From the NCBI GenBank assembly GCA_027001105.1, contig JALTMZ010000088.1, positions 1 through 20,099 on the forward strand: a DNA stretch of 20,099 nucleotides, in the 5' to 3' direction. Shown here piece after piece: positions 1 through 20,099 of this stretch. Positions within the stretch are counted from its first letter, which is position 1. Every line of letters starts with the position of its first letter. Source of the stretch: Thermococcus sp. Its GTDB lineage: Archaea > Methanobacteriota_B > Thermococci > Thermococcales > Thermococcaceae. The notes under the pieces were generated by a model. That model ran no database searches. It had not been told where the DNA came from and was given only the letters and a program-made list of their open reading frames with translations. Both the position numbers and the translations under genes were made by a program.

Positions 1-779
1 GCTATCTCTGGGAAGAATGGGGATTCTTTAGGATGTTTGAGGGCAAAGTTACTCATGTCTTCAATGGCATAGCCTGTGACTTCTGGAACGAAGAATTTCT
101 GGAAAACAGGGATTTGCCAAGGAGAGAGAGGAGGAAAAAGATACTTGAAAGCTTAGGCTTGAGCGATGGGGTTGCTTTTATGTTCATAGGCAGATTTGAT
201 AAGGCACAGAAGGGAGTTGACACCCTTTTAAGGGCTATCGAAATTTTGGCTGAAGGTTATCCTCAAGAGTTTTCAAAAATGAGGTTCATAATCATTGGAA
301 AAGGTGATCCAGAGCTTGAGAGCTGGGCACATACAATGGAGAGCAAATATCCAAGCAATGTGAAGGTTATCACCAAGATGCTCAAAAGAGAATTTACAAG
401 AGAGCTCTACGGCAGTGTTGATTTTGTTATAGTTCCTTCATACTTTGAGCCCTTTGGTCTTGTGCAGATGGAGGCAATGTGCTTAGGAGCAATTCCAATA
501 GGTTCAGCGGTTGGAGGCATTAAGGACACTATAGTGAGCTTGGATGAGGATGAAGAAAATGCTACGGGACTTTTAGTTCCTCCAAGGGATGCTTTCGCTT
601 TGGCCCAGGCAATGCTCAGGATGGCGAAGCTTAGGGAGGAAAACCCAGAACTGCTGAAGAAAATGAGGGTTAATGGGAAGAGGAGAGCAAAGGAAGTCTT
701 TACATGGGAAAACGCATGTAAGAGATACCTCAGGGCTTACAAAAATGACATAGACAAGGCAGTAAGCTTCATAAAATGA
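1..779 (+). CDS. glgA: Glycogen synthase, C-terminal part (5' end outside window)
   Basis: Partial gene, open at the left edge; the frame is read from base 3 (YLWEEWGFFR...) to TGA 777-779. Glycogen synthases transfer glucose from ADP- or UDP-glucose to a growing alpha-1,4-glucan in the cytoplasm. What is visible is the C-terminal Rossmann lobe of a GT-B glycosyltransferase: IGRFDKAQKG (donor-site loop), then FEPFGLVQMEAM, which carries the E-x7-E motif of retaining GT4/GT5 enzymes, then GSAVGGIKDT and GLLVPPRD. A Met at base 33 is internal, not the start, because the upstream codons continue the family sequence. The length and order of motifs fit the short archaeal (Pyrococcus-type) glycogen synthase. 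The family assignment is firm; donor preference cannot be read from this fragment. A minus-strand sRNA gene begins just past the stop. Confidence 0.9.
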   Translation, partial: YLWEEWGFFRMFEGKVTHVFNGIACDFWNEEFLENRDLPRRERRKKILESLGLSDGVAFMFIGRFDKAQKGVDTLLRAIEILAEGYPQEFSKMRFIIIGKGDPELESWAHTMESKYPSNVKVITKMLKREFTRELYGSVDFVIVPSYFEPFGLVQMEAMCLGAIPIGSAVGGIKDTIVSLDEDEENATGLLVPPRDAFALAQAMLRMAKLREENPELLKKMRVNGKRRAKEVFTWENACKRYLRAYKNDIDKAVSFIK

Positions 780-838
780 GGCATCAGAACCGAGGTTTGT
801 CCTCACCGCTCAGGAGCGGCCAAGCTCATCATCTGCCA
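780..838 (-). ncRNA. C/D box guide sRNA (2'-O-methylation guide)
   Basis: Read on the minus strand this spacer has all parts of an archaeal C/D box sRNA in order. They are C box ATGATGA (832-826), a 12-nt guide GCTTGGCCGCTC (825-814), D' box CTGA (813-810), a 4-nt spacer, C' box TGAGGA (805-800, one change from TGATGA), a 12-nt guide CAAACCTCGGTT (799-788), and D box CTGA (787-784). The flanks GCA and TGC can pair to close the k-turn stem. Both guides are exactly 12 nt, the optimum for archaeal box C/D RNPs (L7Ae, Nop5, fibrillarin). Under the D+5 rule the methylated bases would be G in the targets AACCGAGGUUUG (D) and GAGCGGCCAAGC (D'). A minus-strand TATA box lies about 25 nt upstream. Sequence-supported; targets were not searched. 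Confidence 0.85.
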
Positions 839-840
839 TA

Positions 841-882
841 GCTTTTTATTTCCTTTCTCTTTATAATTTTGGAGGTGATTAA
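841..882. promoter_or_regulatory. Divergent promoters for the sRNA (-) and HIT gene (+), plus strong RBS
   Basis: On the minus strand AAAATTATAAAG (870-859) is a good archaeal TATA element placed about 25 nt before the predicted 5' end of the sRNA near 839. On the plus strand CTTTTTATT (842-850) could be the TATA element for the HIT gene, giving a start near 870. GGAGGTGAT (871-879) is a near-perfect Shine-Dalgarno sequence 3 nt before the ATG at 883. Promoter calls rest on motif and spacing only. Confidence 0.5.
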
Positions 883-1332
883 ATGAAATGCCCCTTCTGC
901 AATGCAAGCCCTGAAGTGCTGCTTTATGAGGATGACCTAATCAGAATTCTCATTGACTCCTATCCAGCTAATAGAGGTCATCTTTTGGTTGTACCGAGGA
1001 GACATGTAGAAAAATGGGAAGAGCTGAGGTTTGAAGAGAAAGTTGCTTTGCTTAGAGGGATTGAACTTGCAATAGAAAAGCTGAAGCAGACTTTAAATCC
1101 AGATGGCTTTAATGTTGGTATAAATTTAGGAAAAGCCGCTGGGCAGACTGTTCCCCATCTTCACATTCACGTAATTCCGCGATATGAGGGAGACACGAAC
1201 TTTCCGAGAGGAGGTGTCAGAAAGGCAGTTCTTGATGTTGAAGACGAAAACTTAGAGCTAAAAGAACGCTGGATTAAGAACAGAATGAGTGAAAAGGAAA
1301 TTGAAAACCTAAGGCAAGCCTTTACTCCTTAA
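883..1332 (+). CDS. HIT-family nucleotide hydrolase/transferase
   Basis: 149-residue cytoplasmic protein of the histidine triad superfamily (HINT/FHIT/Ap4A hydrolase type), which cleaves the phosphoanhydride or phosphoramidate bond of nucleotides such as diadenosine polyphosphates or AMP conjugates. The triad HLHIHV is at residues 92-97 after QTVP, with H96 the expected nucleophile. DSYPANRGHLLVVPRRH (25-41) is the usual N-terminal substrate-binding region, and FNVGINLGKAAGQ precedes the triad. An N-terminal CPFC (3-6) resembles the zinc-binding pair found in many prokaryotic HIT proteins; the partner residues are less clear. The ATG is fixed by the GGAGGTGAT ribosome binding site. The end lies 8 nt from the convergent MazG-YbaK gene. 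Family certain; the natural substrate cannot be told from sequence. Confidence 0.93.
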   Translation: MKCPFCNASPEVLLYEDDLIRILIDSYPANRGHLLVVPRRHVEKWEELRFEEKVALLRGIELAIEKLKQTLNPDGFNVGINLGKAAGQTVPHLHIHVIPRYEGDTNFPRGGVRKAVLDVEDENLELKERWIKNRMSEKEIENLRQAFTP

Positions 1333-1340
1333 CTGCAGTT

Positions 1341-2090
1341 TTATTCTGCAATATCCAGAACTTCAGCCTTCTGAAATTCAAGAATTTTCTCTGGCTTTAT
1401 CTTTATTAAGCGGTCAATTCTTCCACCGCCAGCTATTACGATTTCCTTTTCAAGGACTTTCTTGTCAATCACCGTTTTAATTGAAATCCCAACCGGTGGT
1501 ACTTCTCCAACTTTGTATCCTGTAATTTTCTTGACCTCTTCTTTATTTGCCATTCTAACTTTCCCAAAGTACTTTGCGAGCTTTTCTAAGCTGGCTTTAG
1601 AGTTTCCATCAACTATAACCAAAATCGGTTCTTTTTCAGTAATAAAGATCAAAGATTTAACAACTTGTTCTGGTTTAACCCCTAAGAGCCTTGTAACCTG
1701 CTTAACGCTCCTAACTTCTTTTCCAACTTCAATTATTTCCCCTTCAAGTTCTTCAACGATCTCTTGCAGTCTTATTTCTCTTGCTGGATACTTTTCCTCA
1801 TTTTTCTTCAGCTTCCTTTCAACAGCTTCATCCAAATCAATGCCGAGCTCATGGGCTAAAAGCGTGAGATAGATTATTATATCGGCAATTTCATCTCCAA
1901 TCTCTTCTTTAATCTTTGGATTTTTAACTTTCTCAAGAATTTCTTTATCTGTTTCCCACTGGAAATGCTCTAAAAGCTCTCCAACCTCCACGGCTACTGA
2001 AATGGCAAGGTTTTTTGGTGTGTGGTATTTCCTCCACAGCCTTTCATCTCGAAACTTGACTGCCTTTCCTTCAAGCTCTTTAAAATTCAT
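1341..2090 (-). CDS. MazG-type nucleotide pyrophosphohydrolase fused to YbaK/ProX-type aminoacyl-tRNA deacylase domain
   Basis: 249-residue two-domain cytoplasmic protein. Residues about 1-105 are an all-alpha MazG/DCTPP1-like NTP pyrophosphohydrolase: DERLWRKYHTPKNLAIS, then the metal ligands E35/E38 in EVGELLEHFQW and E63/D66/D70 in EEIGDEIAD, and KNEEKYP at the end, as in dCTP pyrophosphatases. Residues about 107-249 are a YbaK/EbsC domain (Cys-tRNA(Pro) or related mischarged-tRNA editing): LLGVKPEQVVKSLIF with the conserved K145, VDGNSKAS, YKVGEVPPVG and VIAGGGRIDR. Both active sites look intact. The ATG at 2090 follows a GGGAGATGAAGGAG stretch. The 3' end of the upstream gene overlaps its start by 11 nt, so the two are probably translationally coupled. 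Domain calls are strong; the joint role is inference. Confidence 0.88.
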   Translation of the reverse strand: MNFKELEGKAVKFRDERLWRKYHTPKNLAISVAVEVGELLEHFQWETDKEILEKVKNPKIKEEIGDEIADIIIYLTLLAHELGIDLDEAVERKLKKNEEKYPAREIRLQEIVEELEGEIIEVGKEVRSVKQVTRLLGVKPEQVVKSLIFITEKEPILVIVDGNSKASLEKLAKYFGKVRMANKEEVKKITGYKVGEVPPVGISIKTVIDKKVLEKEIVIAGGGRIDRLIKIKPEKILEFQKAEVLDIAE

Positions 2091-2367
2091 GCTCCTTCAT
2101 CTCCCTTAGAGCTGTCAGATATTCTAAAAGCTCATTGAGCTCTTCCTCTGAGAAAATCTCCTCAACATTTTTATCAGGATCGAATTTTAGAAGATAATCT
2201 TTTATCTTATTCAGTCTATCAAGTTCATCCTCCAGCTCTAAAGAGCGCTGTGTAAACTCCCAGCTTGTATGGGGGCTTTCAAAAATCCTCTGCTTGCTCA
2301 CTATTATGGCAACTTTGACGTTTGCTATTGCTTCTTCAAGAAGCGCTAAAAGCTCTTTAACCCTCAT
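2080..2367 (-). CDS. Conserved hypothetical helical protein
   Basis: 95-residue, highly charged, soluble, all-helical protein with no recognised enzyme motif. Heptad-like Leu spacing (ELLALLEEAIANVKVAI, then LELEDELDRLNKIKDYLL) suggests a helical hairpin or coiled coil. It is the first gene of a two-gene operon: its stop lies 11 nt inside the MazG-YbaK gene. A TTAAATAC element on the minus strand near 2400-2407 and a GCGGTG stretch before the ATG are the likely promoter and ribosome binding site. Function unknown; an accessory role for the downstream protein is only suggested by the overlap. Confidence 0.7.
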   Translation of the reverse strand: MRVKELLALLEEAIANVKVAIIVSKQRIFESPHTSWEFTQRSLELEDELDRLNKIKDYLLKFDPDKNVEEIFSEEELNELLEYLTALREMKEHEF

Positions 2368-2430
2368 TTTTTAGCACCGCTGATTAATACTCCATGGGGG
2401 TATTTAAGATGCTCGGCAACTGCAATAAAT

Positions 2431-2476
2431 GAAAAACTTTTAAACTTTGATAGGAAATTTACCATGGTGGTTTTCA
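2431..2476 (+). promoter_or_regulatory. Promoter of the small membrane protein gene
   Basis: GAAAAA followed by CTTTTAAAC (2431-2445) resembles a BRE plus TATA element. A start about 25 nt downstream falls near 2465, at the first ATG (2464). This implies either a leaderless mRNA from 2464 or a short leader in which GGTGG (2466-2470) serves the second in-frame ATG at 2476. Confidence 0.45.
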
Positions 2477-2733
2477 TGGACTTTGACCTGTTTATGGAGA
2501 GATATGGGTACAAGTTGCTTCTTGGATTAATGGCACTTGTTGTAATAGTCGTCGTTGGAATACCGATACTCGGCTACCTATACTTCCTCCGGAGATACAG
2601 CTGGGAAATTGGGGGGCTGATGTTAATAATAGTGGTAGTTTACGCTTTCTCAGTTAGGAGAAAGGTTATGGATGCTTATGCCCAAGCACATGGAAAGTAC
2701 TTCTATGACGATAAGTGGTACAAGAGAAGGTAG
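2464..2733 (+). CDS. Small two-TM membrane protein, hypothetical
   Basis: 89 residues from the ATG at 2464, or 85 if translation begins at the ATG at 2476, which has GGTGG before it. There are two hydrophobic segments, about residues 17-42 (KLLLGLMALVVIVVVGIPIL...) and 48-65, with a short YFLRRYSW turn between them and a basic, Tyr-rich tail (KYFYDDKWYKRR). The positive tail suggests a cytoplasmic C terminus. No known family is recognised. The T-rich spacer after it separates it from iorA, so it is probably its own transcription unit. Confidence 0.65.
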   Translation: MVVFMDFDLFMERYGYKLLLGLMALVVIVVVGIPILGYLYFLRRYSWEIGGLMLIIVVVYAFSVRRKVMDAYAQAHGKYFYDDKWYKRR

Positions 2734-2744
2734 TCGAAATCTTT

Positions 2745-2790
2745 GTTTTCTTCGTGAATCTTTTTCGTTTTATCCAATATTTTTCCGAAA
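2745..2790 (+). terminator. Possible oligo-T terminator after the small membrane protein gene
   Basis: The spacer after the stop at 2733 has several plus-strand T runs (TTTGTTTTC, CTTTTTCGTTTT, ATTTTTCC). Intrinsic termination in Thermococcales relies on such U tracts without a hairpin. Weak evidence from composition only. Confidence 0.3.
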
Positions 2791-2834
2791 TACGGGTTTT
2801 TAACATGAAGCTCGATTAATTTTTGGTGGTGAGG

Positions 2835-4685
2835 ATGAGGAAACTTCTAATGGGTAACGAGGCTATCGCTTATGGAGCTTTAGAGAGCGGAATTTCTTTT
2901 GCAACTGGTTATCCTGGGACTCCATCAACCGAGGTCATCGAAACGATAGCACACCTAAACCCGGAGGTTTTTGCCGAATGGACACCAAATGAAAAAGTGG
3001 CTTTAGAAGAAGCAGCTGGTGTTTCTTATGCTGGGCTTAGAAGTTTGGTAACTATGAAGTGTGTCGGCTTAAACGTTGCCGCTGATCCTCTTATGAGCTT
3101 GGCTTATTCTGGTGTTGAGGGAGGCTTAGTAATTTTGGTTGCAGATGACCCTGGACCTCATACCTCTCAAACGGAGCAGGATGACAGGTATTATGGAAAG
3201 CTCTCCCTTTTACCGGTTCTTGAGCCTCATGATCCCCAAGAAGCCCATGATTTAATCAAATATGCCTATGAGCTCAGTGAGAAGTACAAAGTTCCTGTAA
3301 TATTCAGAACTACGACAAGGGTAAATCACACAACTGCTGACGTTGAAGTTGGTGAGTTTGTTAAGCTTGAGAGAAAGCCGGAGTTCAAGAAGGACATACA
3401 GAGGTACGTGAGAGCCTCAATGAAAGGCAACTTGGAGAGGCATAAATGGCTGAACAAGACGCTTAGAGAAATTGAAAAAGAATTTGAGACTTTAGAATTC
3501 AACTGGGTTGAAGGTGACGGAAGAATAGGAATTATTACTGAAGGAGCTCCATACAACTACGTAAAAGAGGCTGTTCCAAAGATTGGTGAAGATTTTAAAA
3601 TCTTAAAGCTCTCAACTCCACATCCGCTTCCAAGGAAACTGGTAGCCGATTTTCTTAAGAGCGTTGACATGGCGATAGTTGTTGAGGATGGAGCACCCTT
3701 CTTAGAGGAAGAGGTTAAAATTGTAGCGTATGAGGAAGGGCTTAGCGTTCCAATATATGGGAAGAGAACCGGTAATTTGCCCCTCGAAGGAGAGCTAACG
3801 CCAAGCTTGGTTAGAAACGCCCTTTTGAGACTTCTTGGAAAGGAAGCCCAAAGCTATGAGAAGCCTAAGGAAGTTGAGGAAGCAGAAAAATTAGCACCCT
3901 CAAGACCACCAACCATGTGTCCGGGCTGTCCTCACCGCGGTTCTTATAGAGCTCTGCTCGATGCTCTTAGGGAACTTAAGTTCAGGAGGGATGAGATACC
4001 GATACATGGGGATATAGGTTGTTACGCACTCTCATTACTGCCACCACTTGAAGCCATTTGGACAGAGTACGTCATGGGTGCAAGCATAAGCTTGGCAAAC
4101 GGCCAGAGCATAGCTTTTGGCAAGAAAATTGTTGCCACAATTGGAGACTCGACATTTTTCCACAACGGAATACAGCCCCTGGTGGATGCTGTTTACAAGA
4201 ATCTTGATGTCCTCGTGATGATTCTTGACAACAGAACAACGGCAATGACTGGACATCAGCCCCATCCCGGAACTGGCGGAAGTGAAACAGGGAGAAAATT
4301 CAATGAGATTGACATTGAGGCATTGGTCAAAGCTTTAGGGGTCAAATACGTCAAAACAGTTGATCCGTATGATTTGAAGGCAACGAGAGAAGCAATAAAA
4401 GAGGCGATGCAGGTTAAAGGACCAGCGGTTATCATAGCTAAGAGGGAGTGCATAATTCCAGTGATTAGGAGAGGGGAGATAGGGGAGCTGCCGACAGTAA
4501 TTGAGGACAAATGTGTTGGTTGCAAGGCATGCATTCTTCTGACAGGCTGTCCCGCACTGGTTTATGACCCAGAGACCAACAGAGTCAAGATTGACCCGCT
4601 GATATGTACGGGCTGTGGGATCTGCAACCAGCTCTGTCCTTTTGATGCAATAAAGTTTCCAAGTGAAACAGAAAAGAAAGAGTAA
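2835..4685 (+). CDS. iorA: Indolepyruvate:ferredoxin oxidoreductase, alpha subunit
   Basis: 616-residue alpha subunit of IOR, which oxidatively decarboxylates arylpyruvates (from Trp, Phe, Tyr) to aryl-CoA and reduces ferredoxin during peptide catabolism. The N terminus (MGNEAIAYGALESG, ATGYPGTPSTEV) is the pyruvate-ferredoxin oxidoreductase domain I. The thiamine diphosphate motif runs from GD 437-438 (GDSTFFHNG) to DN 465-466. Two [4Fe-4S] ferredoxin clusters close the protein: C560, C563, C566, C572 and C591, C594, C597, C601, each ending in CP. The ATG at 2835 is chosen because GGTGGTGAGG lies directly upstream; a TTG and GTG codons before it are within that RBS. The partner iorB (beta subunit), often adjacent in related genomes as far as I recall, is not next to it or elsewhere in this window. 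Confidence 0.95.
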   Translation: MRKLLMGNEAIAYGALESGISFATGYPGTPSTEVIETIAHLNPEVFAEWTPNEKVALEEAAGVSYAGLRSLVTMKCVGLNVAADPLMSLAYSGVEGGLVILVADDPGPHTSQTEQDDRYYGKLSLLPVLEPHDPQEAHDLIKYAYELSEKYKVPVIFRTTTRVNHTTADVEVGEFVKLERKPEFKKDIQRYVRASMKGNLERHKWLNKTLREIEKEFETLEFNWVEGDGRIGIITEGAPYNYVKEAVPKIGEDFKILKLSTPHPLPRKLVADFLKSVDMAIVVEDGAPFLEEEVKIVAYEEGLSVPIYGKRTGNLPLEGELTPSLVRNALLRLLGKEAQSYEKPKEVEEAEKLAPSRPPTMCPGCPHRGSYRALLDALRELKFRRDEIPIHGDIGCYALSLLPPLEAIWTEYVMGASISLANGQSIAFGKKIVATIGDSTFFHNGIQPLVDAVYKNLDVLVMILDNRTTAMTGHQPHPGTGGSETGRKFNEIDIEALVKALGVKYVKTVDPYDLKATREAIKEAMQVKGPAVIIAKRECIIPVIRRGEIGELPTVIEDKCVGCKACILLTGCPALVYDPETNRVKIDPLICTGCGICNQLCPFDAIKFPSETEKKE

Positions 4686-16603: not shown

Positions 16604-17206
16604 ATGAGGACAAAGTCTGAGAATCTCTTGGAGATAGGGGCGGTGTCTGGGTTCCTCTTGCCCATAATCTTTGCAATAATGTTGAGTGTAGCTATAGCTC
16701 TTAATCCATGGTTTTCTTTCCATAAAAATGCCCTGAGCGACTTGGGTTCTCTTAAAGTCCAAACCCGGTATGTTTTCAATTCGGGCTTAATCATCATGGG
16801 TCTCCTTGGCATTGTCTTTTCTCTGGCAGCTGTTAGGTATTTTGGCTCAAATATTATGCACATTCTTACGGTTGCAATGGCATTTTTAATAGCCGTAGGG
16901 ATTTTTCCAGAGGAGTACGGCAAAATTCATTCAATCCCTGCGATTCTGTTTTATTTGTTGTCCCTTACTGGAATCTTTTATGCTGGTGTTATCTTTAGAA
17001 AACGTGGGAAACAAAAGCTCTCCTTATTCAGCATGATAGGTAGTGTTGGCACATTTATCTTAATGACATTAACACTTGGAAAATCTGGGTTAGCTGTGCC
17101 AGAAATGATAGGTGCCGTTTTTATACTTTCTTGGATTGTTGTGATAAGCCACAAGATGTTAAAAGAGACAAAAAGGAAAGAGTTGAACATCAAATCTCGT
17201 TCATAA
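16604..17206 (+). CDS. DUF998-family integral membrane protein
   Basis: 200-residue protein with about six membrane segments. NPWFSFHKNALSDLGSLK (about 35-52) is the DUF998 signature (W-F-x-x-x-x-N-x-L-S-D-L-G), followed by FNSGLIIMGLLGIVFSLAAVRYF. A second signature-like region, FPEEYGKIHSIPAILFYLLSL, is also typical. The tail is basic (HKMLKETKRKELNIKSRS) and probably cytoplasmic. ATG 16604 is chosen over the GTG at 16595 since GGGTG (16593-16597) then serves as ribosome binding site. The end overlaps the convergent S-layer-like gene by 17 nt. The family has no assigned function that I know. Confidence 0.83.
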   Translation: MRTKSENLLEIGAVSGFLLPIIFAIMLSVAIALNPWFSFHKNALSDLGSLKVQTRYVFNSGLIIMGLLGIVFSLAAVRYFGSNIMHILTVAMAFLIAVGIFPEEYGKIHSIPAILFYLLSLTGIFYAGVIFRKRGKQKLSLFSMIGSVGTFILMTLTLGKSGLAVPEMIGAVFILSWIVVISHKMLKETKRKELNIKSRS

Positions 17207-18653
17207 ACTCTTCAACAGCTTTCCTTGTCAGTGTGTAGTCCTTGCCCGCGAGTATTATGACTTTATACTCTGGATTTTTCGGATTGTCCATGACTTTGAC
17301 AACGTATCCCTTGTTCATTATTTCATCCTTTATACTCTGGATTGTGCTTGAGCCATAAACCTGCTCCAGTAACTTCCATGCTTTATTGCTGACCCATCCT
17401 CCAACGATTATCACATTTTTATCACTGGGCAGCTTTGTTAGTTGAGTGTCCTCTATTATCAGCTTGTTTACATCGTCGATAACATCAGCTTTAACGGTTT
17501 TTACGGTTACCTTCTTTTTTACTGTATCAATTCTGACAAATCTGTAGCCTGCGATTCCAGTTATCTCACCGTTTTCATCTTTTGTAAACACCGGCTGAAG
17601 GTTAAGCCCATCAATTGGAAGTTTCAGCATTTGACCGTCATCGAGTACAACTTTGGGGAAATTGTTGTCTGGATCGACATGGAGATACAGCACAAACAAA
17701 TTGTTGGTTGGGTCTATGTCCCAAATCCACTGTCCCTCGTAGACTTCGCCATCCTGATACATTCTAACCTTCTCGTAATATTCATATTTGTATGTGACCT
17801 GTCTTGTACCTCCTATACCAACAAAGAAGTCTGTTGGGGAGATTATCAGCATCTTCTTAATTCCAGCCTGTAGAAGCTCCTGAATCCTTGCTGAAGGATA
17901 TGAATCAAAGGGTTCAAAGTCTTCATCTCCGTTGGCATCAACGTAGAGGATGTAGTACTTATTCTTATAGAGCGTGTCTGTCCTCACGAATCCGCTCGGG
18001 AATGATATGTCAACAAGGGTCTTTTCCTGCTCAGTGTCAATATCTCTGAACTTAATTTTCCATCCATTTATTGTCAGCGTTTCACCCAGAGCCTTTGAAC
18101 CGGAGTTTTCCTCATATGAGTAGATGTACATGGTATCCTTTCCGTCCACGACCGTAGAAACTATTTTGGTGGTTTCTCCCCCAAGATTTAGGGGAGTTGT
18201 ATTTTCATTGAAAATTATCTCAATGCTCCTGTCGTTGAACTGTGCCTTTTTGATAGTATCGTTGTATAAGACCCTCGAAAAGTTAACCGCAACAACAATT
18301 GCGTTTCCAACAGGGGAATCTCCAACGGTAATCCCCACATCTGGCATATCCACACTGTTCAGCTTGTAGTACTGGTCGCTGTCTGGGATTAAGACGCTGT
18401 GGTACTCAATAGGCACATCAACGTATGTGGAGTATGTTACCTCTCTTATGCCTTTGAGCACAAGTAAGGCTCCCAATTTTGATCCAGTGATGGCATCCTC
18501 GCCTATATGGAGGGGTTGCCCATTAACTATCTTTGTTGTCGGTAGAACAATAACGCTATTTGCCGAGTTCACTTTAAAATTAAATCCCTGTACTGCTCCT
18601 GCAACAGATGCTAAAAACAAAACAGATAGTATTACGCTCAAAACTTTTCTCAT
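17190..18653 (-). CDS. S-layer-like secreted protein
   Basis: 487-residue exported protein. The N terminus is a classic signal peptide (MRK, hydrophobic core to about residue 20, AGA before V21). The mature start carries the archaeal S-layer N-terminal pattern IVLPTTKIVNGQPLHIGEDAITGSKLGALL, and the C terminus ends with VIIVGGWVSNKAWKLL and VIILAGKDYTLTRKAVEEFM, as in Methanococcales/Thermococcales S-layer proteins. Several N-glycosylation sequons are present (NFS, NDT, NTT). It is somewhat shorter than the main S-layer proteins I recall from Thermococcus (about 600 residues), so it may be a minor paralogue. AGGTGAG, 5 nt before the ATG, is the ribosome binding site. No transmembrane anchor is visible. 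Confidence 0.82.
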   Translation of the reverse strand: MRKVLSVILSVLFLASVAGAVQGFNFKVNSANSVIVLPTTKIVNGQPLHIGEDAITGSKLGALLVLKGIREVTYSTYVDVPIEYHSVLIPDSDQYYKLNSVDMPDVGITVGDSPVGNAIVVAVNFSRVLYNDTIKKAQFNDRSIEIIFNENTTPLNLGGETTKIVSTVVDGKDTMYIYSYEENSGSKALGETLTINGWKIKFRDIDTEQEKTLVDISFPSGFVRTDTLYKNKYYILYVDANGDEDFEPFDSYPSARIQELLQAGIKKMLIISPTDFFVGIGGTRQVTYKYEYYEKVRMYQDGEVYEGQWIWDIDPTNNLFVLYLHVDPDNNFPKVVLDDGQMLKLPIDGLNLQPVFTKDENGEITGIAGYRFVRIDTVKKKVTVKTVKADVIDDVNKLIIEDTQLTKLPSDKNVIIVGGWVSNKAWKLLEQVYGSSTIQSIKDEIMNKGYVVKVMDNPKNPEYKVIILAGKDYTLTRKAVEEFMNEI

Positions 18654-18682
18654 ACTTACTCACCTAAATTTTGTAGTCCTCA

Positions 18683-18693
18683 AAGTTTATAAC
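18683..18693. promoter_or_regulatory. Symmetrical TATA box able to serve both strands
   Basis: AAAGTTTATAACC contains TTTATAA (18686-18692), which reads TTATAAA on the other strand. On the minus strand it would start near 18664, just upstream of the S-layer-like gene's ribosome binding site. On the plus strand it would start near 18714-18718, at the 5' end of the C/D box sRNA. The spacing fits both; which is used was not tested. Confidence 0.45.
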
Positions 18694-18717
18694 CTTGTCC
18701 CAGTATTTTTTACAATG

Positions 18718-18774
18718 TGCGATGATGAATGAATCCAATGCTGAACTGATGATTGACCCCAGAGTGGCTGAGCA
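18718..18774 (+). ncRNA. C/D box guide sRNA overlapping the DUF2391 5' region
   Basis: Elements in order: closing stem TGC (18718-18720), C box ATGATGA (18722-18728), a 12-nt guide ATGAATCCAATG (18729-18740), D' box CTGA (18741-18744), a 2-nt spacer, C' box TGATGA (18747-18752, perfect), guide TTGACCCCAGAGTGG (18753-18767, 15 nt), D box CTGA (18768-18771) and closing stem GCA (18772-18774). By the D+5 rule the D' guide would direct methylation of G in CAUUGGAUUCAU and the D guide of U in CCACUCUGGGGU. The RNA ends 2 nt before the likely ATG of the next gene, so it may be processed from, or compete with, that mRNA. All four boxes are canonical; targets were not searched. Confidence 0.88.
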
Positions 18775-18776
18775 AA

Positions 18777-19253
18777 ATGAGTGAGGAACTGAAACAGATC
18801 AATGAGCGGTTTAAAAGGCTCTCAGAACAGATTGAAGGGTTAGAGAGGAAGTTTGAGAAGAAACCAGATAAGCTGGGGTGGGATGACATAGCTCAGGAAA
18901 TCATCGGTGCTCTGACGTTTTCTCTCCCCTTTCTCTTTACACAAGAAATCTGGGACATAGCAAAGTCTTTAACTATGGAACGAGCAGTTGGAATTCTGAT
19001 TTTGACCCTCTCAATTGCTTATCTTTTCATAACAAAAGCAAAAGTTTCAAACATTGAGAGAGAAGAGCTGTTCCACATACCAAAACGCCTTTTAACGGTA
19101 GTTTTGATCTCATATCTGATATCTGCGGGCTTGATCTACCTGTATGGTATAAACAGACTTGCTGAGTTCTCCCTGAATCAGTACATAAGTGCGACCATCA
19201 TAATAAGCACCTTTGCCGTGATTGGTGCAATAGCCGTTGATATGGTGAAGTGA
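18777..19253 (+). CDS. DUF2391-like integral membrane protein
   Basis: 158 residues. A charged N-terminal coiled coil (residues 1-30, KQINERFKRLSEQIEGLERKF split over the segment) is followed by four membrane segments: about 41-62, 70-87, 105-124 and 134-155. The pattern of a cytoplasmic coiled coil plus a 4-TM block resembles DUF2391 proteins; the family call is from memory. The longer frame opening at TTG 18753 is rejected as a start because its first codons are the D guide and D box of the sRNA. ATG 18777 has only a weak upstream GAGTGG. Its stop abuts the next ATG directly (TGA then ATG), so it is in an operon with the TOPRIM protein. Confidence 0.72.
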   Translation: MSEELKQINERFKRLSEQIEGLERKFEKKPDKLGWDDIAQEIIGALTFSLPFLFTQEIWDIAKSLTMERAVGILILTLSIAYLFITKAKVSNIEREELFHIPKRLLTVVLISYLISAGLIYLYGINRLAEFSLNQYISATIIISTFAVIGAIAVDMVK

Positions 19254-20099
19254 ATGAGAATTGTGACGGGAAAGCGTTATGAGAATTTTAAGGATGCGGT
19301 ACTTTTCCCAGAGCATGAAAAGAACAGCGAAGAGCTGAAGAAGTTTGTAGGTTCACTTGAAGGAGAAGAAACCGTGGTTACAGCAAGCTTAGAGCTAATT
19401 GACCTTATCTTGGAGCGGTTTAAAAGAACGGAAAGCGGAGAGCTTCTATATTCTGACACAATGAAAAGCTTAACTTTGAAGGAAGCTTATGAGCTCAGAA
19501 AATACCTCGATTTTGACCTGAGAGGTGCACCATTTGGTGAATTTTCCAAAGTCAGTGTTATCTTCTGTGAGGGTAAAACTGATTCGAAGTTTTTCAAAGG
19601 GGTTTACAAAAAGCTGTTCGGACTTAAAGAAAGCAGAACAGTGCCTGAAAATTTAAAGCTAATTGAAAAAGTTTTTAAGAGAGACAACTTTGAGCTTTTG
19701 ACAAAAGACGATGTATTTCTGGCAATAATCCCAAGTGAAGGCAACACTGGAGTCATAAGGAACTTAGGAAACTTTTTGAAAGCTATGGATGTTTTTGAGT
19801 TTAAAGTTGACAAGATAGGGTTAGCCATTGATATTGATGAGAGTGCTGAAGGGGTAATAGAATCAATAACTGGCAAGCTTTCATCGTTCAAATTCACAAG
19901 GGAGGGAGGGAATTTTAGAGTTGGAGATGTTGCTATAATCCCGCTTTTAATCGGCTACCACTTTAGGCATCCATGCGTGGAATGGAAAAAGCCAACTGTT
20001 GAAGATTTGATGCTTAAACTCTTAGAAAAGCAAGGGGTGCTGAGGAAAATTGAGAGGGCAATAAACATTCTGCGCATTGATTTAAAGAGAAAGCTGAAG
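19254..20099 (+). CDS. TOPRIM-domain protein (DUF3226-like), 3' end outside window
   Basis: Open frame of 282 codons from the ATG directly after the DUF2391 stop to the last base of the window, so the C terminus is missing. GGTGAAGTG precedes the ATG. After about 98 residues of charged alpha/beta sequence, a TOPRIM-type core begins: VSVIFCEGKTDSKFF with the conserved E106 and D110, then AIIPSEGNTGVIRNLGNFLKA, then KIGLAIDIDE with D193 and D195. This matches the E...DxD layout of TOPRIM folds found in topoisomerases, primases and OLD-type nucleases, and resembles the DUF3226 group. Magnesium-dependent nucleic-acid chemistry is expected from the fold, but no activity is shown. Co-translation with a membrane protein is unusual for such a domain. 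Confidence 0.75.
   Translation, partial: MRIVTGKRYENFKDAVLFPEHEKNSEELKKFVGSLEGEETVVTASLELIDLILERFKRTESGELLYSDTMKSLTLKEAYELRKYLDFDLRGAPFGEFSKVSVIFCEGKTDSKFFKGVYKKLFGLKESRTVPENLKLIEKVFKRDNFELLTKDDVFLAIIPSEGNTGVIRNLGNFLKAMDVFEFKVDKIGLAIDIDESAEGVIESITGKLSSFKFTREGGNFRVGDVAIIPLLIGYHFRHPCVEWKKPTVEDLMLKLLEKQGVLRKIERAINILRIDLKRKLK

Follow-up and report, generated by a model that had tools for sequence, protein, structure and literature searches.

We consider it likely that the guide RNA sR46 (Rfam RF01130) of the Thermococcales has a TATA promoter of its own and doubles as the 5' leader of the DUF2391-DUF3226 mRNA, with the C box serving as start codon in most Thermococcus and a slipped reading frame in the genus of the genome studied here. 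The window, meaning the whole stretch of DNA that was analysed, comprises 20,099 nt of contig JALTMZ010000088.1 (Thermococcus sp.); its arrangement is a shifted variant of the C-box-start layout. The features of interest are listed below.

18681..18692, + strand: BRE/TATA element CAAAGTTTATAA, with the hexamer TTTATA at 18686-18691 (from spacing)
18718..18774, + strand: C/D box guide sRNA sR46, RF01130 (from cmscan, 83.3 versus 50 bits, and the letters)
18722..18728, + strand: C box ATGATGA, whose ATG opens a 20-codon frame, 18722-18784 (from the letters)
18729..18740, + strand: D' guide, pairing with 16S AAUUGGAUUCA over 10 bp, registers 2-11
18741..18744, + strand: D' box CTGA (from the letters)
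18746..18755, + strand: C' box, two registers (from the letters and the g5 and g3 sequences)
18756..18767, + strand: D guide, pairing with 16S GCACUCUGGGGG over 10 bp, registers 2-11
18768..18771, + strand: D box CTGA (from the letters)
18777..19253, + strand: DUF2391 membrane protein (PF09622), 158 aa, likely start ATG 18777
19254..20099, + strand: DUF3226 protein (PF11536), truncated at the window end, with a GGDGRD motif at -10

The guide RNA in the window

A cmscan search of the window matched the complete RF01130 model at 18718-18773 (83.3 bits, E = 2.2e-18; the gathering cut-off of the family is 50 bits). The boxes C, D', C' and D are present in that order within a short closing stem, TGC 18718-18720 with GCA 18772-18774. 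The C' box is degenerate and can be read in two registers: CTGATGA at 18746-18752 matches RUGAUGA in 6 of 7 positions and gives a spacer of 15 nt, and ATGATTG at 18749-18755 matches in 5 of 7, gives the 12-nt spacer also found between C and D', and is the register of g5 and g3 (genus labels are given below). An earlier note on this DNA had described all boxes as perfect, with a TGC/GCA stem; this description holds for C, D', D and the stem, but the C' box reaches only 6/7 or 5/7. The same note was right in placing a C/D box sRNA 2 nt before a start codon: the RF01130 match runs to 18773, the D side of the stem ends at 18774, and AA (18775-18776) leads directly to ATG 18777. Folded alone, the leader is no more stable than its shuffles (z of +1.0 and +0.9), which is uninformative for such an RNA.

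Judging from the pairing of its guides, the element in the window is at heart an ordinary methylation guide. A search of the window's own assembly gave no match for an rRNA gene, and relatives stand in for the window species; of the eight genomes searched, six yielded a 16S gene. In all six of these genes, the D' guide forms 10 contiguous base pairs with AAUUGGAUUCA and the D guide 10 contiguous base pairs with GCACUCUGGGGG, and both duplexes run through position 5 from the box, the predicted methylated nucleotide. The predicted 2'-O-methyl targets are a G for the D' guide (16S position 913 in T. kodakarensis, 919 in genome G087) and a U for the D guide (1100 and 1106, respectively). When 300 shuffles of each guide were tried against G087, none paired equally well for D' and five did for D.

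The D' guide core TGAATCCAAT is identical across the 70 loci compared. The D guide is altered in g4, where sR46 is 3 nt shorter (53 nt) and has a C'-D spacer of 9 nt versus 12. Two g4 D guides were tried: their runs of 7 in G087 were equalled by 171 and 193 of 300 shuffles, their maximum in T. kodakarensis rRNA was 8, and their best was 9, in two genomes outside g4. In g4 the 16S match of the sR46 D guide has been lost, yet the 16S of T. kodakarensis retains the target sequence.

Distribution across the order

Matches to sR46 at E <= 0.001 were found in 89 of the 94 genomes of the order (above the cut-off in 85), including all 74 near-complete genomes; among the unrelated control genomes, 1/14 matched, below the cut-off. 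The locus analyses covered 89 loci, distributed over the genus labels g1 (the window's own, 7 loci), g2 (3), g3 (9), g4 (58, including T. kodakarensis), g5 (11) and g6 (1). We take g3 to be Pyrococcus and g4 to be Thermococcus proper. The D' guide core and D' box recur in the 70 of 89 loci whose letters were compared, and all 89 pass the D' box pattern. Because 89 of 94 genomes match and the D' core and box recur, sR46 is not a chance match. Three of 26 pattern hits carried labels outside the Thermococci (L081, L086 and L096); they had no Rfam match over the cut-off and were dropped. A second sR46-like match below the cut-off, of about 30-34 bits, occurs in seven g4 genomes (G018, G019, G025, G033, G044, G058 and G063) and is perhaps a related sRNA.

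The RNA and the gene are separable. At the g3 loci DUF2391 was not found beside sR46 (0/9), and DUF3226 was likewise not found there at any of the nine. PF09622 was absent genome-wide in 21 of 25 genomes checked, most of which were chosen for missing the conserved DUF2391 block described below, some being incomplete and one having a split gene; the four with a match have PF09622 beside sR46.

Probable promoter and shared transcript

In the window, the TATA hexamer is centred 29 nt before the sRNA, a spacing that predicts a transcription start at about 18714-18717. The hexamer is found at 27-29 nt in all seven g1 loci (each a 6-of-6 match), at 25-27 nt in g5 (11/11), g2 (3/3) and g6 (1/1), and at 23-27 nt in 52 of 58 g4 loci, of which five more have a 5-of-6 match elsewhere and one has none. 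In g3, a 5-of-6 match was seen in only 3/9, one of them at 27 nt. Control windows contained 5-of-6 matches in 10/89 cases and 6-of-6 matches in 0/89.

The element at 18681..18692 is probably the promoter of both the sRNA and the operon. Since TATA lies 29 nt upstream and the upstream neighbour (17190-18653) is divergent from sR46, a common start of the operon at sR46 is indicated, and the sRNA and the DUF2391-DUF3226 mRNA very probably have one promoter and one 5' end. These two observations, together with the published report on the TK0108 transcript discussed below, support the earlier proposal that the sRNA lies within the 5' leader of a DUF2391/TOPRIM mRNA. In the profile searches performed here, the TOPRIM likeness of the DUF3226 protein is weak. 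DUF3226 was also considered as a defence system and rejected, PADLOC returning only weak matches (best E of 1.4e-4 for the window's protein). On the other strand, the sR46 TATA TTTATAAC reads GTTATAAA (within 18653-18692) and precedes the start ATG of the divergent S-layer-like gene (17190-18653) by about 36 nt; a single TATA element may serve both directions.

Likely start of DUF2391 in the window

DUF2391 most likely starts at ATG 18777 in the window. The position of this ATG is kept in all six g1 loci that have DUF2391, and at 158 aa the closest database relative (94% identical) is just as long as the frame from ATG 18777. No GGDGRD (Shine-Dalgarno) motif was found in the 20 nt before ATG 18777; such motifs do stand at -10 for DUF3226 and at -11 for the divergent gene. 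The linker between sRNA and the DUF2391 block is 99 nt in 6/6 g1 loci, where the C-box frame is out of step with DUF2391. In the window, the C-box frame comprises 20 codons, MMNESNAELMIDPRVAEQNE, and its stop TGA 18782-18784 falls just past ATG 18777.

The C-box reading frame in sister genera

A conserved LGWDD block of DUF2391 follows sR46 in 50 of the 58 g4 loci, in every case in the reading frame that the C-box ATG opens. The same holds for 6/8 loci in g5 and 1/1 in g2 but 0/6 in g1, for a total of 57/65. The g4 distances from sRNA to block are 86, 92, 101, 104, 107 or 110 nt, all equal modulo 3, and the sRNA is 53 nt long in 50/50 in-frame loci. In the g4 linkers, the C-box frame contains a stop in 0/50 cases versus 42 and 47 for the other two frames; counted up to the next ATG or the block in all 57 in-frame loci, the numbers are 0 versus 17 and 43. 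Only when read in the C-box frame do most single-base codon differences in g4 come out synonymous (for classes with three or more loci). Counted between pairs of loci, so that related genomes also enter as pairs, the ratio of synonymous to other differences in the largest class (23) is 2091 to 1340 in the C-box frame, and 903 to 2684 and 603 to 3034 in the other frames; in one class of 8, synonymous changes are outnumbered by the others in the C-box frame (134 to 199).

The anatomy of the RNA varies with the presence of the gene. The D'-C' spacing is 5 in 51/51 in-frame g4 and g2 loci and 4 or 9 in 7 of the 11 g4, g2 and g6 loci without the block (Fisher p = 7e-7, with relatedness left in); this count leaves out 27 g1, g3 and g5 loci, in which the C' pattern misfits or gives another register. 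The four block-less loci with spacing 5 are L103, which carries an insert, L105, at a contig end, and L063 and L104, which keep a short piece of the frame. The insert in L103 (genome G059) lies right after the sRNA and splits DUF2391, and the C-box ATG frame there runs for 427 codons; the insert is presumably transposon-like.

A tree of DUF3226 covers 73 of the 89 loci, the remainder being without a match or too short. In it, L050 (spacing not 5, no block) falls among in-frame genomes with branch support of 91/91, and four block-less rows fall among g4 rows. The in-frame state needs 7 changes, 5 of them forced by well-supported branches, and 26 of 70 inner branches are open; the tree does not settle the ancestral state of the frame.

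From these comparisons, sR46 in g4 is probably also the first ~16 codons of DUF2391, and in sister genera DUF2391 probably starts at the C-box ATG, whose use is what the open frame leads us to infer. The g4 TATA at 23-27 nt (52/58) predicts a start of transcription within a few nucleotides of the C-box AUG; the criterion for a leaderless mRNA is a 5' UTR of about 5 nt or less. The earlier note had missed this complete overlap of the sRNA with in-frame coding sequence in sister genera. Public gene models of DUF2391 are inconsistent and place the start at either box (C or C') or on either side of the sRNA. Sorted by their N-terminal letters, 67 public related proteins start at the C-box ATGs (either of the two) in 34 cases, at the C' box in 20, upstream in 2 and otherwise in 11; of these last, 8 begin at a Met downstream of the sRNA and the other 3 belong to a different type.

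The T. kodakarensis locus

Published data are available for the T. kodakarensis homologue. TK0108 is listed as 'Tko-sR04 + hypothetical protein' and ranks highest in read number in one cDNA library and fourth in the second, and Tko-sR04 is placed in the 5'-terminal region of the TK0108 transcript (both according to PMC4247193). The published mass and pI of TK0108 are 22.39 kDa and 4.99, with gel masses of 23.0-24.4 kDa (as given in PMC4473059). We found a frame from GTG 87664 whose mass and pI equal these published values, and so the locus can be identified as TK0108; neighbouring HAD-hydrolase and elongation-factor genes also help to place it. The frame contains the one RF01130 match of the genome, and from its place we infer that Tko-sR04 is the T. 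kodakarensis copy of sR46. Because GTG 87664 lies upstream of the likely promoter, the old TK0108 gene model would seem to be too long. The expected mass from the C-box start is 19.76 kDa; the gel masses are nearer to the 22.39 kDa of the long model, which counts against the C-box start. The main Table 1 of the published circular-RNA work lists 24 other small RNAs, and the absence of the sR46 copy at 87.7 kb from it likewise speaks against a simple picture.

Alternative explanations

Under plain co-transcription, a strong sRNA promoter would be common to the operon, the sRNP would shield its body, and the remainder would be trimmed or translated, with sRNA assembly playing no regulatory part for DUF2391; we give this about even chances. 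Archaeal C/D sRNAs normally vary in their genomic context according to PMC7994747, which also relates that a 5' overlap reduced expression of the downstream gene in a reporter (Tripp et al. 2017), and sR46 persists without DUF2391, both at the g3 loci and in the 21 of 25 genomes (mostly chosen for the missing block) that lack PF09622. On the other hand, the frame is open through the sRNA in 57/65 DUF2391 loci, which suggests that the gene uses these bases; promoter sharing needs no such thing. A more radical possibility is that the element is a cis-acting k-turn leader only, without any trans-acting guide. PMC4247193 raises a cis-acting option for some 5'-located snoRNA-like elements, but here each guide forms 10 bp with 16S in six genomes, and the RNA persists in 9/9 g3 loci where neither DUF2391 nor DUF3226 was found adjacent, and we regard this idea as extremely improbable.

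Two further alternatives concern start codons. DUF2391 in the window might start at TTG 18753, the upstream limit of its frame, directly after an in-frame TGA (18750-18752), in which case its opening codons would come from the D guide and D box. The earlier note had equated these bases with the first codons of the longest frame of the next gene; the longest frame does run open from TTG 18753, but as a reading of DUF2391 codons here, ATG 18777 is the better one. The TTG belongs to C'/guide sequence seen again in g5 and also in the g3 loci, where no adjacent DUF2391 was found, and the constant place of ATG 18777 in g1 and the 158-aa relative also speak against it, making a TTG start very unlikely. 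In Thermococcus, DUF2391 might truly start at a downstream ATG or GTG or at the ATG of the C' box, the open C-box frame being a by-product. Between sRNA and block, 32/50 g4 loci have an in-frame ATG and 12/50 only GTG or TTG (a downstream ATG is also present in 39 of all 57 in-frame loci), and the 67 public protein models include 20 that start at the C' box and 8 that start at a Met beyond the sRNA. Against this reading, 6/50 g4 loci have no start codon at all from the sRNA to the LGWDD block. The fixed D'-C' spacing of the in-frame loci, lost in 7/11 block-less ones, also counts against a downstream start, because this spacing matters for the frame only if the start lies upstream of the spacer. 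We find such a start fairly unlikely, and the C box remains our preferred start in most Thermococcus.

Relation to known systems

The window element and Tko-sR04 belong to the same family and occupy the same place, before DUF2391 (TK0108) and in the 5'-terminal region of the transcript. They differ in that the T. kodakarensis sR46 is in frame with DUF2391 and has a D guide that pairs poorly with rRNA, whereas the window sR46 has a shifted frame and two guides that pair. According to PMC4247193, T. kodakarensis has 12 snoRNAs in 5'-coding regions and 11 in 5'-UTRs. The locus also resembles the 5'-overlapping archaeal C/D sRNAs, in which the sRNA and the start of the downstream gene overlap or lie a few nucleotides apart; in that class, the start codon usually lies within a guide or past the D box (as described in PMC7994747). 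ATG 18777, 2 nt past the sRNA, has the position inside or just after the sRNA that defines the class. In contrast, the start codon of the sister-genera sR46 is probably the C box itself, in frame in 50/50 g4 loci. As an mRNA that carries a k-turn motif at its 5' end, the transcript also resembles the L7Ae-bound mRNAs of Sulfolobus: L7Ae binds mRNAs or represses reporters with k-turns in the leader or coding sequence (l7ae, nop5 and saci_2027; as reported in PMC5539422). Those are simple k-turns with binding or repression shown, whereas sR46 is a whole guide RNA.

Among the literature matches listed, there was nothing on the sR46 overlap or these DUFs, nor on a C box that carries a conserved start codon whose frame is kept while the gene is present. 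The sR46 family and the 5'-overlapping class were already known, whereas the conserved C-box start codon is new. At stake is the regulatory meaning of archaeal guide sRNAs placed on gene ends, a placement that is frequent. The order offers a natural series: some loci have sRNA and gene in one frame, others have them in different frames, and others again have the sRNA but no gene, often with a broken frame. This series makes the regulatory question testable in T. kodakarensis, a species with published gene knock-outs.

Proposed mechanism

In the arrangement we favour, sR46 would be transcribed from its own TATA promoter, which would also be that of DUF2391-DUF3226, and the sRNA would make up nearly the entire 5' leader. 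L7Ae, Nop5 and fibrillarin would presumably bind the box motifs, shielding the first ~57 nt, and the mature sRNP would methylate 16S at the two sites predicted by the computed pairing. In most Thermococcus, where the frame is open, the C-box AUG could be the start of a nearly leaderless DUF2391 mRNA, and each transcript would be either guide or messenger, not both at once. In the window's genus, the frame would have slipped, such that the 20-codon C-box frame ends over the DUF2391 ATG; DUF2391 might then be expressed by read-through of the leader, by coupling from the short frame, or by excision of the sRNA, which would leave AAAUG at the new 5' end.

Given this layout, control of DUF2391 translation by sRNP assembly, as the earlier note suggested, is plausible. 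A specific version, which we think unlikely, is that ribosomes and L7Ae compete for the 5' AUGAUGA, plentiful L7Ae giving rRNA guide and titrated L7Ae giving DUF2391, with the AAAUG left by excision in the window's genus acting as a leaderless mRNA. If true, a two-way sR46 would couple a membrane-protein operon to ribosome assembly.

Other C/D sRNAs

The published table of 24 T. kodakarensis small RNAs was surveyed for comparable arrangements; 20 were readable with C/D boxes, and one of the other four was masked. The idea that C-box starts are general in this species was rejected, 0/20 starting at the C box. In 7/20, a frame runs from in or just after the sRNA for at least 60 codons beyond it, some of these maybe by chance. 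In sR05, sR34 and sR61 (genome G024), frames of 77 codons or more start at the C' box (RTGATGA), and these C' boxes may serve as start codons. The window itself contains a second C/D sRNA, sR32 (RF01119), at 782-836 on the - strand (50.6 bits versus a cut-off of 40), in the gap between one frame that ends at 779 and the following frame, which starts at 883.
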